Below, piece after piece: positions 1,677-28,931 of a stretch of 36,795 nucleotides of DNA. The position numbers were made by a program, and so were the translations under genes. The notes beneath the pieces are model-generated. The model ran no database searches. It was not told the DNA's origin and was given only the letters and a program-made list of their open reading frames with translations. Source of the DNA: a virus; IMG/VR virus record IMGVR_UViG_3300032282_002109, positions 1 through 36,795 of that record, one strand, 5' to 3'. Each line of letters starts with the position of its first letter. Positions within the stretch are counted from its first letter, which is position 1.

Positions 1677-3977
1677 TTAAACTGCACAGGATTCACACTC
1701 TCCCTCCTCTACTGAACTTAATTCATTTAACAGATCTTCAAGATTGGATTTCTTTTCCTCTACTACCTCATCAGTCTTAATATCATAAGTGTTTTGGTAG
1801 TAGGATGTTTTCCATCCATACTTGTATGTAGTCAAAAAGTCATTTGCCATCACTGACACAGGAACTTCATTGTCTGGATAATTCTCTGGATTATAGGACC
1901 AGTTTCCAGAAATCGCTTGATCAAAGAACTTCTGCATAACAGCAACAATATGAATATACCCACGATTGCTAGGCATATCCCAGAGCAACGTATAATTGTT
2001 CTTAAGTGTTTGGTACTGAGGAACAACTTGCTTGAGTGGACCTTTCTTCGACTTCTTAATGGACAAGAATCCACGAGGAGGTTCGATTCCATTGGTTGCG
2101 TTTGACACAACGGAACTGCTCTCCGATGGCATCTGTGCGGACAATGTTGAGTGCCTGAGGCCATGTTCCAGGATTGATGCTCTAAGAGATTCCCAATCAT
2201 GCTGATAAGAAACAGAAGAAATTTCGTCTACATCTTTTTTGTATGTATCGATTGGAAGAATGCCATCAGCATACTTGGTGCGTCCAAAGTTTTCACAATA
2301 ACCTTTCTCTTTAGCCAGTTGATTGGATGCTTTCAGCAGATAATATTGGAAAGATTCTGAAAGTCCATGCACAGCATCCCATGCTTCCTGAGAATCATAA
2401 TTGAATCCAAGTTTTGCCAAATAGTGTGCAAGACCAATAAACCCTATACCAAGCGAACGACGTGCCTTGGTGGCAATCTCCGCTGCCTTTACAGGATACT
2501 TTTGATAGTCAATCAACTCCTCCAATCCTCGAACAGACAGATCGCAAAGATCTTCCAATTCATCATCAGACTTTACCTTACCAACATTGATAGCAGACAG
2601 AATGCAAAGTGCAATCTCACCATGCTCATCATCAATATGTTGAATTGGATAAGTAGGAAGAGTGATTTCCTGACACAGATTGCTCATCTCAACTTTATCC
2701 TTGAAGGATGAATGAGAATTGCAGTGGTCAATATTCATGATATAGACGCGACCCGTTTCCGCACGTTCTTTGAGAAGGTTGAGAATGAGTTCTTGCGCTT
2801 TAACAGTTTTTTTCTTAACGGACGGATCTTTCTCATATTGACAGTAGAGATCATCAAAGCGATCTGATCCGAAAGCATCATAAAGTCCAGGTACATCATG
2901 TGGGGAGAAAAGAGTGATCTCGCCGTCTTGAATAAATCTTTCATAGAACAACTTGCTAATTTGAATTGAATAGTCAAGTTTACGGACACGATTATCTTCC
3001 GTTCCCTTGTTGTTTTTGAGAACAATGATGTCTTCTATTTCTTGATGCCAGATCGGAAAGTGGACCGTAGCTGATCCACCTCTGATGCCATTCTGAGTGC
3101 AGCATCGGACAGTTGCTTCAAACTTCTTGAGGAATGGAACAACACCAGTGTGCTGAACTTCTCCATCTCGGATTTTGCTGTTGATGCCACGGATTCTGCC
3201 TGCGTTGATACCAATTCCTGCTCTTTGCGCCACATAACGACCAATTGCCATATCAGAGCTGAAGATACTGTCAAGGGTGTCATCAACGTCAACAAGAACG
3301 CAACTTGCAAATTGGCGAAGTGGGGTTCTAACGCCTGCCATGATCGGCGTAGGAATGTTGATTTTGTGCTTGGAGATTGCGTCATAGTACCTCTTAACGT
3401 ATGACATTCTAGTTTCTTTGGGATACTCTGCAAAGACTGTCAGAGCAATCAACATGTACATAAATTGTGGCGTTTCATAAACTCCGCCACTGCTTCTGTC
3501 CTGCACGAGGTACTTATCAACGACCTGACGTAAACCCGCGTAAGTGAACAGATAGTCACGATCATGATCAACGTATGAATTAGCCTTCTCAATGTCTTCT
3601 TGGGAATATTTGTTGTAGATATCATGGTCATAAACTCCCGCACTAACACAATCAATAATGTGTTGTTCCAATGTAGGAAGTTCATTCATTCTTCCATAGA
3701 GACTTTTTCTAAGAGAAAACAAAAGAAGTCTTGCAGCAACATATTGATAGTTTGGATGATCAAGATCAATGAGATCCGAAGCTGAACGAATCAGAATCTC
3801 TTGAATCTCTGCTGTTGAAATGCCATCATAAAACTGAATACCTGATGTCATCTCAACTTGACTCGCAGAGACGCCTGCAAGACCCTTACATGCCTCTTCA
3901 ACCATCACATGCATCTTGTCTAGGTCAAGAGACTCAATTCGACCATCACGCTTTTTAACCTTTGTTCCGTTGCTCAT
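1677..3977 (-). CDS. nrdA: Ribonucleotide reductase class Ia alpha subunit
   Basis: The 766-residue large subunit reduces ribonucleoside diphosphates to deoxyribonucleotides. An ATP-cone-like segment occupies roughly residues 1-95 (VKKRDGRIESLDLDKM onward), implying allosteric activity control. Catalytic signatures are visible: Cys in FASCVLVD, the NLCQE motif (Asn, thiyl Cys, Glu), Cys in ALCILSA and the C-terminal redox pair CESC. Length matches T4 and E. coli NrdA. The ATG at 3977 overlaps the primase stop by 4 bp (ATGA), so primase and nrdA are probably co-translated from the promoter near 4.97 kb. No inactivating change is seen. Confidence 0.96.
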   Translation of the reverse strand: MSNGTKVKKRDGRIESLDLDKMHVMVEEACKGLAGVSASQVEMTSGIQFYDGISTAEIQEILIRSASDLIDLDHPNYQYVAARLLLFSLRKSLYGRMNELPTLEQHIIDCVSAGVYDHDIYNKYSQEDIEKANSYVDHDRDYLFTYAGLRQVVDKYLVQDRSSGGVYETPQFMYMLIALTVFAEYPKETRMSYVKRYYDAISKHKINIPTPIMAGVRTPLRQFASCVLVDVDDTLDSIFSSDMAIGRYVAQRAGIGINAGRIRGINSKIRDGEVQHTGVVPFLKKFEATVRCCTQNGIRGGSATVHFPIWHQEIEDIIVLKNNKGTEDNRVRKLDYSIQISKLFYERFIQDGEITLFSPHDVPGLYDAFGSDRFDDLYCQYEKDPSVKKKTVKAQELILNLLKERAETGRVYIMNIDHCNSHSSFKDKVEMSNLCQEITLPTYPIQHIDDEHGEIALCILSAINVGKVKSDDELEDLCDLSVRGLEELIDYQKYPVKAAEIATKARRSLGIGFIGLAHYLAKLGFNYDSQEAWDAVHGLSESFQYYLLKASNQLAKEKGYCENFGRTKYADGILPIDTYKKDVDEISSVSYQHDWESLRASILEHGLRHSTLSAQMPSESSSVVSNATNGIEPPRGFLSIKKSKKGPLKQVVPQYQTLKNNYTLLWDMPSNRGYIHIVAVMQKFFDQAISGNWSYNPENYPDNEVPVSVMANDFLTTYKYGWKTSYYQNTYDIKTDEVVEEKKSNLEDLLNELSSVEEGECESCAV

Positions 3978-25209: not shown

Positions 25210-26343
25210 TCAGAAAACTTCGTCGGATGCAAATGCAGCACGAACTTCCGATTCAGAAGGACCAGTGGGCATCTGGAAGTCAGCATCAACTTTATCATAA
25301 AGTTCCAAGAAAGCTTGCTTGGTTTCATCATCAAAACGATTCACACAAACTTGAATTGCTTTTGCTTTATCTTGAAAAATAGCATAAGCACGAATAACAT
25401 GAACCAAGCGACGAGTGCTGATGATTTCCTCAATACCACCATCGTAGAAAGTCTTACGAATGATATCAGCCCAATCGGCAAGACGCTCACAGAAAGATGA
25501 ATCATTGATGCCAACAGAAGATGCAATTCCCTCAAGAATTCGACACTCAATTTTAGTGTTAGGATATTCTTGCTCAAAGGTCACAGGGAAACGCTCAAGG
25601 AATGCTTCATTGAGCACGTTGGTGCCGATGAAGCGACCGTCATCAGAACCCTTCCCCTTAGTGTTGGCGGTGGCGAACACGTTAAAACCAGCAGCAGGTT
25701 TCACGAAGCGACCAATTTTTTTCAGGAAGACACCCTTACCTTCCAGAACAGATTGCAGACACAGAATCTTGTTAGAAGCAAGGTCAATCTCATCCAGCAG
25801 AAGGATTGCACCACGCTCAAGTGCTTCGATCACAGGACCATTGTGCCAAACCGTCTCACCATTCACCAGACGGAAACCACCGATCAGATCATCTTCATCG
25901 GTCTCAATGGTGATGTTGACACGAATCAGTTCACGCTTGAGTTGAGCACACGCTTGCTCCACCGAGAACGTTTTACCGTTACCCGACAGACCCGTAATGA
26001 ACGTAGGGTAAAAGATACGGGACTGAATAATTTTTTTAATATCGTTAAAGTTACCAAACTTGACGAAGGTATCATCTTTATCAGGAATAAGGTTTTGTTC
26101 CACAGCAGGAAGGGCAGCAGGAGCTTGATATGCCTGCTCCATTTTATTTACAACAGAAGGAGTCACTTCCAGATTCCACTTGCCGCGAGCAACTTTAAAT
26201 TGCTCAAGACGCTTGGTTACTGTCGGATAAGAGATTCCACGAGAAGCACAGAAACCACGAACATCAGCAGCAGTAAATTCTGCTCCGAAAGTGCTTTTAA
26301 GATCGTTGAGAATCTGGTCGTCAGTCATTTGAATGCGAGACAT
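25210..26343 (-). CDS. cobS: CobS-like MoxR-type AAA+ ATPase, 377 aa
   Basis: Residues 1-60 form a helical DNA-binding-like or adaptor domain. The AAA+ core starts near residue 95 with Walker A GLSGNGKT at 118-125, then DEDDLIGGFRLVNGETVW, Walker B ILLLDEIDLA, sensor-1 FATANT and an LERFP arginine-finger region. Cyanophage versions are usually annotated as cobaltochelatase subunit CobS. The fold is equally that of MoxR ATPases, which act with VWA-domain partners, and such a partner is encoded next door. It is the first gene behind the TATAAT and triple repeat at 26367-26403. Confidence 0.88.
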   Translation of the reverse strand: MSRIQMTDDQILNDLKSTFGAEFTAADVRGFCASRGISYPTVTKRLEQFKVARGKWNLEVTPSVVNKMEQAYQAPAALPAVEQNLIPDKDDTFVKFGNFNDIKKIIQSRIFYPTFITGLSGNGKTFSVEQACAQLKRELIRVNITIETDEDDLIGGFRLVNGETVWHNGPVIEALERGAILLLDEIDLASNKILCLQSVLEGKGVFLKKIGRFVKPAAGFNVFATANTKGKGSDDGRFIGTNVLNEAFLERFPVTFEQEYPNTKIECRILEGIASSVGINDSSFCERLADWADIIRKTFYDGGIEEIISTRRLVHVIRAYAIFQDKAKAIQVCVNRFDDETKQAFLELYDKVDADFQMPTGPSESEVRAAFASDEVF

Positions 26344-26366
26344 GATGTGTGTTTTTCACTGTAGCC

Positions 26367-26403
26367 ATTATAAGGGCAGAGTGGGGCAGAGTTAGGGCAG
26401 AGT
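26367..26403 (-). promoter_or_regulatory. TATAAT with three phased 9-bp direct repeats upstream
   Basis: On the minus strand, ACTCTGCCC occurs three times (26395-26403, 26384-26392, 26374-26382) with 11- and 10-bp periods, ending 1 bp before TATAAT (26367-26372). No -35 hexamer is present at the expected distance; the repeats occupy that space. The helical phasing fits an activator- or repressor-binding array for cobS and the downstream clamp operon. Confidence 0.7.
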
Positions 26404-26405
26404 GG

Positions 26406-26591
26406 TCAGTTTTGCAACTGGTTTCGAAGTGTCTCAAGATACTCTTTACTACCACAATGACCTTTATATCCGGGATAATATCTTTCAACTATAGCAGGAA
26501 TACCCATTGCGGTAATCGCACTATCACACTTTATCCAAACTTCTTTGGTGTCATATTTGACCACATGTTCAAAAGGAAATTTATTTTTCAT
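26406..26591 (-). CDS. Small protein between VWA/HExxH and CobS-like genes, 61 aa
   Basis: The product starts MKNKFPFEHVVKYDTKEVWI and has KCDSAITAMGIPAIVERYYPGYKGHCGSK, with two Cys and a His spaced like a small beta-alpha domain. The ATG at 26591 overlaps the upstream stop (ATGA), and it ends just before the repeat-containing promoter. Being wedged between the two partner genes, it may belong to the same complex. No family is recognised. Confidence 0.75.
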   Translation of the reverse strand: MKNKFPFEHVVKYDTKEVWIKCDSAITAMGIPAIVERYYPGYKGHCGSKEYLETLRNQLQN

Positions 26592-28762
26592 GCTACCAGA
26601 GAAATAAATTCACCAAGAACTTTTTTATTTAGTTTTTTAGTCTTCAAAGATTTTACAAAGGCAGATTTAATTTGTGCTTTTGTGGCATCATCAGAAACAT
26701 CAAATTCAGAATCCTGAGATAGGGCAGAAGAGGAAATACCAAAGTAAGCATCATACCCAGAATTAGTAATAGTGAAACTCTTTAGTTTTTTCCAATCATT
26801 TTGCATTTTTTCATGTCCTTTAGCATCATGATAAAGTGACATAAAACGACTTGCATTACGACCTTCAATAACACGAATACCAATAAAGTTCGTTGTAGAA
26901 AACTTATCCTTTAAATTCTTGAGGAGCATGTCAGTAAAATGATGATATCCATATTCAACTTTATAAGTTGTTCCAAGTTTACGATCGCGCAAGAAAGTTT
27001 TTTCAGGTGCAATGCCGCGAACACCAAGATATGGTTGAGATTCCCAATTACGCTGAACTTCAACGTGGTAAGGAATTTGAGATGCCTCACCATCAGTCAA
27101 TACGATACATTGAACTTTTTGAAGTTTGTTTTCTTTCTGAAACTTTGGCAGAATTTGGTGAAGAGAAATCAATGCCTCATTCAAAGGAGTTCCTGAAAGA
27201 CAAAGACGATTGGGATAGGTGTATGCGGTGTGATAAGTATCGGCAAAGCAAATAGCCAAACGCCAAATATTCATCATTTGATGTTCCAACTCTTTACCAG
27301 AAACTTTACTGGTAAGAAGATTCATCATTGAGAATGTTTCATCAACTTGAAGCAATCCATCTTTCTTTTCATAATGCGAAGTGCGATCTGCTGCTTTAAA
27401 AGTTCCTGAAGAATAATCATATTCACCACGTCGCCACTCATTTGTAAAGGCATAAACCTCAAAAGGAATTGCAACTTTTTTACAGAACCAAACAAGATTG
27501 AAAAGTTGTTTGCAAGTATCCAACAGAACACGTTGCATTGAACCAGACCAATCAAGAACAAACACTAGACCATGGTTTTTACCATCAGGAAACACAGTGA
27601 CTTTCTTGAAAAGATCTTCATTATATTTGTAAGTATGAAGACGAGCCGTATCCAAAACACCCGTGCGAGCAGTTGCAGCACGAGCATAAGAATCTGCTGC
27701 TTTACGACATTCAAACTCTTTCACTAGATAGTTGACTTCTTTTTGAGCAGAAAGTTTAAATTTCTTAAACTCTTCATCTGCATGTTTGAATAGATTAATA
27801 GTATCCCAACCACGATCAATACATTGTTCATCACGACTTTTTTGTTGTTGAGCAAAACAAGAATCAATATCCTTATGAATATCCGAATTTTTACCAATCA
27901 CAGTATCCAAATTAACTTTAGGAACCTCAACATAAACATTTTCCGTTCCAATCTCATTTACAAGATCACGAATCTTATCTTCCAATGATTCAGCTGTGCG
28001 AACTTCAGGTTCTTTATCTTGTCCAGAAGTTTGAACTGTTTGATCACCTTGAGCATTTCCAGTCCCAGTAGCTTCTTGGGATTGGGGCGATTCAGATTCA
28101 CCTTCTTGCTCATCATTAGGTTGTTCATTCTCAACCAATTCATTTGCAGGAGATTGAGATTCTCCCTGTTGAGACTCAAGATTATCCAAAGAAATCTTAG
28201 TTTCTTCCTGTTGCTTGTGCTTGCAATACTTATAGAGTTCTTCTGCGGCAATCAGAACATCGGCAAAAGTTTCAGTATCGGCAATCAGATTGATAATTTC
28301 TGTCTCTTGACCACGCTCAATCGGCACATCAACATAGTTACCAATCTTGAACCACAGGTTTGCACGGTCGGCAAGATTATAAGTTTCCAGATTGTCGTCT
28401 TTGATTTGGAAGAAATCGTCATCAGCAAGTTCCTTATAACCGTTAAAGAAGGTCTTAGCAAGACCAGCATAACGACGCTTCATCAGTTTCTCAATACGAG
28501 CATCCTCAACCACATTCACAAACTGGGGCGGAATCTTGTGCTCCTGCAACCAGTCCTCATCAGGCGTATAGAGAGCGTGACCGACTTCGTGACCCACCAA
28601 AAGGTCATAGACGGTGTTGCTTGCCTTCTCCCACATCGGCAGAGTCAGCACACGAGTATGAACGTTAAAGCAAGCGGTGGCAACTTGCTTGTGCTCAACC
28701 ACAAGATCTTCAGTGGCAAGCAGTTTGGCAAGTTGGGACTTGATTTCGTGAGAGACAGCCAT
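26588..28762 (-). CDS. CobT-like protein with HExxH and VWA domain, 724 aa
   Basis: The N-terminal domain holds LLVGHEVGHALYT, with HEVGH at residues 58-62, then NVVEDARIEKLMKRR, whose Glu could be the third zinc ligand. An acidic Gln/Glu/Ser-rich linker covers about 190-255. A VWA domain follows with MIDAS motif DWSGS at 404-408 and later VLTDGEASQ. This is a CobT-like VWA protein with an added metallopeptidase signature. The start at 28762 avoids overlap with the upstream gene; a longer frame lacks support. It is the likely partner of the CobS-like ATPase. Confidence 0.85.
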   Translation of the reverse strand: MAVSHEIKSQLAKLLATEDLVVEHKQVATACFNVHTRVLTLPMWEKASNTVYDLLVGHEVGHALYTPDEDWLQEHKIPPQFVNVVEDARIEKLMKRRYAGLAKTFFNGYKELADDDFFQIKDDNLETYNLADRANLWFKIGNYVDVPIERGQETEIINLIADTETFADVLIAAEELYKYCKHKQQEETKISLDNLESQQGESQSPANELVENEQPNDEQEGESESPQSQEATGTGNAQGDQTVQTSGQDKEPEVRTAESLEDKIRDLVNEIGTENVYVEVPKVNLDTVIGKNSDIHKDIDSCFAQQQKSRDEQCIDRGWDTINLFKHADEEFKKFKLSAQKEVNYLVKEFECRKAADSYARAATARTGVLDTARLHTYKYNEDLFKKVTVFPDGKNHGLVFVLDWSGSMQRVLLDTCKQLFNLVWFCKKVAIPFEVYAFTNEWRRGEYDYSSGTFKAADRTSHYEKKDGLLQVDETFSMMNLLTSKVSGKELEHQMMNIWRLAICFADTYHTAYTYPNRLCLSGTPLNEALISLHQILPKFQKENKLQKVQCIVLTDGEASQIPYHVEVQRNWESQPYLGVRGIAPEKTFLRDRKLGTTYKVEYGYHHFTDMLLKNLKDKFSTTNFIGIRVIEGRNASRFMSLYHDAKGHEKMQNDWKKLKSFTITNSGYDAYFGISSSALSQDSEFDVSDDATKAQIKSAFVKSLKTKKLNKKVLGEFISLVA

Positions 28763-28772
28763 GAGGTTTGTT

Positions 28773-28931
28773 TCAGATGAGGCTATGATAAAACGAAAGG
28801 TCACCTTTTGGGTGACCCATGTGACGCTTTTTAAACTGGGCAAGTCGTGCTTTTGCTTGCCGAAGTGCTTGTGGTTTAAGTTTGCGTTTCTGTTCCTTCT
28901 TGGAATGGTGACGCCAGTTTGGGACTTGCAT
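28773..28931 (-). CDS. Small basic protein, 52 aa
   Basis: ATG at 28931 starts 13 bp after the gp46 stop and opens 52 codons, MQVPNWRHHSKKEQKRKLKP then QALRQAKARLAQFKKRHMGH. It is extremely basic and helical and could bind nucleic acid. A frame from 28982 overlapping gp46 is less likely. A terminator-like hairpin lies within its last third, which weakens the case slightly. I believe similar small basic proteins occur in cyanophages, but cannot check. Confidence 0.55.
   Translation of the reverse strand: MQVPNWRHHSKKEQKRKLKPQALRQAKARLAQFKKRHMGHPKGDLSFYHSLI
28785..28817 (-). terminator. Terminator-like hairpin after the gp46 module
   Basis: On the minus strand GGTCACC-CAAAA-GGTGACC (28799-28817) is followed by TTTCGTTTTATC. 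The 7-bp GC-containing stem with a T-rich tail could end transcripts from the gp55-gp47-gp46 unit. It overlaps the coding end of the 52-aa gene. Confidence 0.55.

Follow-up and report, generated by a model that had tools for sequence, protein, structure and literature searches.

Three tandem repeats before cobS in a T4-like cyanophage as one spacer form of a putative dyad-type promoter class

Introduction

The region in front of cobS in a T4-like cyanophage, represented by an IMG/VR virus record of 36.8 kb (the whole stretch of DNA analysed here, referred to as the window), raises the question of what role three closely spaced copies of a 9-bp motif play directly next to a -10 hexamer. The initial annotation of this stretch had suggested that the repeats take the place of a -35 element and constitute the box of an activator-dependent promoter or a cooperative operator. 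The T4 middle promoter box consists of one TGCTT-type site near -30. Genes for MotA and AsiA are reportedly missing from cyanomyoviruses, and a review from 2010 describes the control of their middle genes, which come after the early and before the late ones, as unclear (PMC2984593). The same review gives NATAAATA as the cyanophage form of the T4-type late promoter and mentions a putative middle promoter of Syn9 and P-SSM4, the sequence of which is not given there (PMC2984593). According to a cyanophage genome survey, which covered sigma-70, late, NtcA and Pho sites, cyanophages carry NtcA and Pho sites at some promoters (PMC3037559).

Results

The repeat array before cobS

The cultured relatives of this region of the window are Synechococcus myoviruses, e.g., S-SRM01, S-SM2 and SynMITS9220M01. 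On the minus strand, the sequence leading into cobS runs ...AACCAGTTGCAAAACTGACC ACTCTGCCC TA ACTCTGCCC C ACTCTGCCC T TATAAT GGCTACAGTG...ATG (Table 1). All three copies are perfect and follow each other in the direction of transcription at steps of 11 and then 10 bp, and a single T separates the last copy from the -10; motif, spacing and the position beside TATAAT had been correctly described in the initial annotation. Exact matches to ACTCTGCCC within the window are restricted to these three copies, as had also been noted. No other 9-mer of the window has three copies at steps of 9-13 bp, and no comparable triple occurred in 100 Markov-simulated windows.

The hexamer TATAAT and the predicted purine start agree with a plain sigma-70 promoter. 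A -35 element close to TTGACA at 16-18 bp was not found in the cobS promoter of the window: the hexamer at the -35 slot, which overlaps array copies 1 and 2 and the linker between them, matches TTGACA at three of six positions. The absence of a -35 hexamer, as claimed earlier, therefore holds for the window, and some other members of the promoter class described below have a partial -35.

T4-like phages reportedly possess compact promoter-terminator cassettes, the PeSLs (ascribed to Arbiol 2010 and Comeau 2014), which are said to be exchanged between phages. The array spacer of the window has an MFE of 0 and forms no stem-loop terminator of the kind found in such a cassette, and the array as a terminator was ruled out by this fold energy.

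The start codon of cobS (AAA_5) lies at 26341-26343, and it is followed by the genes for a DUF3310 protein, the gp45 clamp, a pyrimidine-dimer glycosylase (DenV) and the gp44 clamp loader. The proposed position of the promoter at the head of a cobS/clamp/clamp-loader block is supported for these five genes. Before the promoter, the 61-aa ORF and a large gene with the sequences HEVGHA and DWSGSM (HExxH and vWA-type motifs) are located.

Table 1. Positions of the promoter features and adjacent genes within the window.
Feature	Position	Strand	Basis
Array copy 1, ACTCTGCCC	26395..26403	-	sequence
Array copy 2, ACTCTGCCC	26384..26392	-	sequence
Array copy 3, ACTCTGCCC	26374..26382	-	sequence
-10 hexamer TATAAT	26367..26372	-	sequence
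-35 slot CTAACT, 17 bp before -10	26390..26395	-	sequence; class-wide profile
Predicted transcription start A, 7 nt after -10	26360..26360	-	inferred from class purine
Dyad CCAGTT-GCAA-AACTGAC, presumed regulator site, centre ~ -53	26405..26421	-	matrix, orthologue consensus
cobS-like AAA+ ATPase	25210..26343	-	Pfam AAA_5, PHROG 249
61-aa ORF upstream	26406..26591	-	ORF list, sequence
Second, weaker dyad	28823..28841	-	matrix score 13.7
32-bp spacer with hairpin GGGTCACC/GGTGACC	28791..28822	-	MFE -12.9
TATCAT, -10-like hexamer	28785..28790	-	sequence

A dyad upstream of the array

Directly upstream of the array lies a dyad which the initial annotation had overlooked. Its consensus, derived from 72 cobS orthologues selected by protein similarity, is CCAsTT-N4-AACTGnC; the dyad of the window reaches a matrix score of 25.1 at 26423(-), with the -10 at distance 32. 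From 240 cobS loci picked by protein similarity alone, 131 distinct usable promoters were obtained, and in 124 of these the right half of the dyad is located 31-34 bp before the -10. The dyad matrix was also used for a genome-wide scan of ten complete cyanophage genomes. A distance of 30-34 bp between dyad and -10 was found in 61 cases, compared to 15 cases for all other scanned distances together. At 30-34 bp, the reversed matrix produced no case, and 20 column-permuted matrices produced none or one.

Almost all members of this class (99% of 161) have a purine 7 nt after the -10, as expected for +1, which places the start in the window at A26360 and the centre of the dyad near -53. The cobS promoter of the window thus conforms to the class definition, i.e., the dyad consensus, 30-34 bp and then a -10. 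A -35 with five of six matches at 17 bp occurred in just 8 of 161 non-array promoters; in many arrays the linker yields CTGACT at the -35 slot, and in Syn9 TTGACT. In 33 of 80 array promoters the dyad scores poorly with the matrix, though the CTGnCC half is mostly visible. Among the genes behind dyad promoters are those for DNA polymerase, a DEAD/ResIII-type helicase, purC and DUF6267 as well as many small ORFs. These sequence comparisons give good support to a recurrent class of cyanophage promoters that have a dyad near -53 and usually no good -35, and a dependence of the class on an activator appears plausible.

At one position in the left arm of the dyad, 49% of the orthologues have C and 15% have A, facing an invariant C in the right arm. 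As these left-arm residues (64%) would break pairing, the element is likely to act as DNA and not as an RNA stem, and an RNA hairpin was ruled out on these grounds. In the window, the TGA stop of the upstream 61-aa ORF (26406-26408) falls within the right half of the dyad (AACTGACC), and this may account for the frequent A at that right-half position in related phages. No match to the dyad was obtained in three cyanobacterial genomes, a weak test that makes a host protein as the binder a little less likely. A dyad-like match without a -10 is present in the window at 3045-3065 (-), with near-identical sequence in Syn9, S-CAM4 and S-SZBM1, and probably represents conserved coding sequence rather than a promoter.

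The window contains a second promoter of the same type as that of cobS (28760-28841), which had likewise been missed. Its TATCAT hexamer precedes the start codon of the HExxH/vWA gene by 22 nt. This start is probably 28760-28762 and not the TTG at 28843 assigned by the ORF finder. With a hairpin in this second promoter and the array at cobS, a single genome carries both spacer forms.

Exchange of the spacer between dyad and -10

The spacers of the 131 cobS promoters contain a hairpin in 85, the array in 17 and neither of the two in 29 cases. The hairpins are often terminator-like; in a wider sample, a hairpin with a T-run was present in 52% of the non-array spacers, whereas array spacers are unfolded. 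Array and hairpin spacers have the same total length, and in relatives without the array its slot often holds a hairpin, while the dyad upstream is constant.

IMG/VR was scanned for two adjacent copies and for three copies of the motif. Among the matches listed, at least 91 distinct triple arrays were identified, of which 80 of 91 reach the -10 within 0-1 bp. The triple arrays among these matches are mostly located before cobS, and the other listed ones precede the HExxH/vWA gene, DUF6267 genes and several small ORFs without known function. The inner steps among the listed arrays were 12+10 in 56, 11+11 in 13 and 13+10 in 9 cases, and 11+10, as in the window, in three. Cultured phages with the array before cobS are S-CAM3, S-CAM4, ACG-2014e, Sf-CH11 and S-SZBM1; in S-SCSM1 and Syn9 (at 44776 in the latter) it precedes other genes, and degraded arrays are found in ACG-2014i and at locus L568. 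In the cultured phage S-T4, by comparison, the spacer before cobS is a hairpin. The initial annotation had made its proposal dependent on conservation of the repeats in close relatives, and relatives do have the array before cobS. In five array promoters (L024, L063, L093, L106 and L107) the first copy lies in the opposite orientation (GGGCAGAGT or GGGTAGAGT) and forms a near-perfect inverted repeat with the second copy.

On a tree of 132 cobS proteins labelled by array presence, the label changes 12 times, and at least nine of these changes are forced by well supported branches, indicating that spacers were often swapped or regained. As only 17 of the 131 cobS promoters carry the array, it is not needed for the class. 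The idea of an activator-dependent promoter is thus retained in part: a promoter region without a good -35 is supported by comparison, but the assignment of the array itself as the activator box is not. The near-universal conserved element is the dyad upstream, and the array, which most cobS promoters lack, is exchangeable with several other spacers. Judged by these comparisons, what the initial annotation had recognised is one form of the exchangeable spacer in a recurrent promoter class.

Conservation of the 9-mer

In loci selected for two exact copies, the remaining free copy of the array was exact in 36 of 46 and in 38 of 50 loci, with changes spread all along the 9-mer. Between the window and a sister locus (L294), 70% of the fourfold sites of cobS are identical, whereas the array is identical at 27 of 27 positions and both linker bases differ. 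The exactness of the free copy and the comparison with the sister locus favour selection on the 9-mer, although not decisively, and the identity of the arrays could also result from recent exchange or slippage. The CTGCCC cores of the array repeat the CTGnC core of the right half of the dyad at steps of 9, 11 and 10 bp, i.e., about one helical turn each. That the array cores provide extra contacts for the dyad-binding protein is a reasonable guess and no more.

Discussion

We consider it probable, with moderate confidence, that the array is the terminator-free spacer of a dyad-type promoter, at which a phage regulator occupies the dyad and transcription of cobS and the following genes starts at ~26360. 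The layout of the class as it emerges from sequence comparison would be a dyad centred near -53, 30-34 bp, a -10 and a purine start, where the spacer may be a terminator-like hairpin, an equal-length triple ACTCTGCCC array or other sequence. We infer that a phage-encoded dimeric protein on the dyad would help the host RNA polymerase at the -10 with little or no -35. Less firmly, an array in place of a terminator may have the effect that the promoter no longer blocks upstream transcription, and the CTGCCC cores might allow the same protein, or a partner, to make additional contacts as far as the -10.

A second reading, less likely but to be taken seriously, is that the array is filler: only dyad, spacer length and -10 would matter, and the repeats, born by slippage and kept alike by slippage or exchange, would bind nothing. 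The many relatives without an array, the frequent changes of array state on the cobS tree and the degraded arrays of ACG-2014i and L568 are in line with this. However, the 9-mer has stayed the same despite variable linkers and diverging fourfold sites in the neighbouring gene, and arrays are mostly either nearly perfect or missing altogether. The occurrence of the same array before unrelated genes, its gain or loss at least nine times before cobS and the PeSLs described for other T4-like phages (cited in PMC4503421) could suggest that the main role of dyad, spacer and -10 is to provide short homologies for module swaps, the spacer differences being by-products. We regard this as improbable, as the fixed distance of 30-34 bp and the +1 purine point to promoter function first; an exchange function is compatible with the regulated promoter favoured here as an added role.

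The sign of regulation has to be considered as well, since a repressor at the dyad would give the same sequence pattern as an activator. The upstream position and the shape of the dyad fit both kinds of regulator alike, and a fair -35 is present in some class members. Most of the class has no -35 and would be weak unaided, and a dyad centred near -53 leaves -10 and -35 uncovered, so that a repressor operator to which the repeats add grip is equally improbable. Hardly any weight is given to the array as a DNA structure, i.e., a G-quadruplex formed by the template strand or an i-motif formed by its complement. Regular G-runs do occur on the plus strand, but the bases that would make up the loops (ACTCT) are no less conserved than those of the G-runs, the variants ACTCTACCC and ACTCTGTCC break a G-run, and at some loci one copy is inverted.

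Compared with known systems, the putative class resembles T4 middle promoters (MotA box and -10, with AsiA) in placing the site of a regulator ahead of a -10 of the sigma-70 type, in its dispensable -35 and in its place before replication genes. It differs in that the cyanophage dyad lies near -53 and has another sequence, whereas the T4 box is single. No TGCTT was found on the transcribed-sense strand between 26335 and 26430, where the -30 region consists of array sequence, and the MotA domains PF09158 and PF09114 had no match in 12 related phages, with control genomes equally silent. The T4-type late promoter (TATAAATA, or the cyanophage form given above) was not found either, the hexamer region reading TTATAATGG. 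NtcA and Pho sites are comparable as regulator sites at cyanophage promoters, but the dyad differs in sequence, and neither GTA-N8-TAC (NtcA) nor CTTA-N7-CTTA (Pho) is present in the cobS promoter sequence of the window. PeSLs are similar as compact intergenic units of terminator and promoter, and dyad promoters of the hairpin type look similar. In the dyad class, however, the hairpin is part of the promoter itself, where it separates dyad and -10; the cobS promoter of the window has a repeat array instead of a hairpin and no terminator. The putative middle promoter of Syn9 and P-SSM4 comes from the same phage group as the dyad class, and Syn9 itself carries an array of the type described. The literature covered, to which the Syn9 transcriptome and PeSL papers did not belong, contained no described counterpart of motif or dyad in cyanophage promoters.

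A speculative candidate for the regulator is CobS itself. In a structure prediction made on residues 1-98, the N-terminus (residues about 8-60) displays the element order of a winged helix ahead of the AAA+ domain, with a block-mean pLDDT of 85-91 for residues 11-60, and the structural neighbours of this domain are mostly winged-helix proteins (Z up to 5.5). A Foldseek search of the domain against the PDB gave no significant match (best E 0.095), and HTH families matched its sequence below threshold only. In dyad-poor phages, the dyad promoters identified include one at the HExxH/vWA gene (S-SM2) or at both the HExxH/vWA gene and cobS (DSL-LC03). On the basis of the model, the winged-helix domain might bind the dyad and the AAA+ motor, perhaps with the HExxH/vWA protein, might remodel the promoter complex and drive its own and other phage genes, which we regard as unlikely.

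A promoter class that is recognisable from its sequence would provide the question of middle control with a concrete site, predicted starts and a list of genes. Cultured phages carry both spacer forms, and the interchangeable spacer, a terminator-like hairpin or an array of equal length, amounts to a natural experiment on the content of promoter spacers.

A search of GTDB for triple arrays gave 36 loci spread over diverse bacteria, mostly with a constant step of 12 bp. These were not counted as the same element, as the flanks shown had no dyad and -10 context. The sequence ACTCTGCCCCTG is found as a tandem 12-bp repeat in bacteria unrelated to each other (Limnohabitans, Pseudomonas, Cyanobium and Verrucomicrobia), including the loci L193, L194, L198, L201, L202, L205 and L225. 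These repeats share the phage 9-mer and the CTG linker, and at L193 the repeat on the other strand would encode AESG repeats in a protein.
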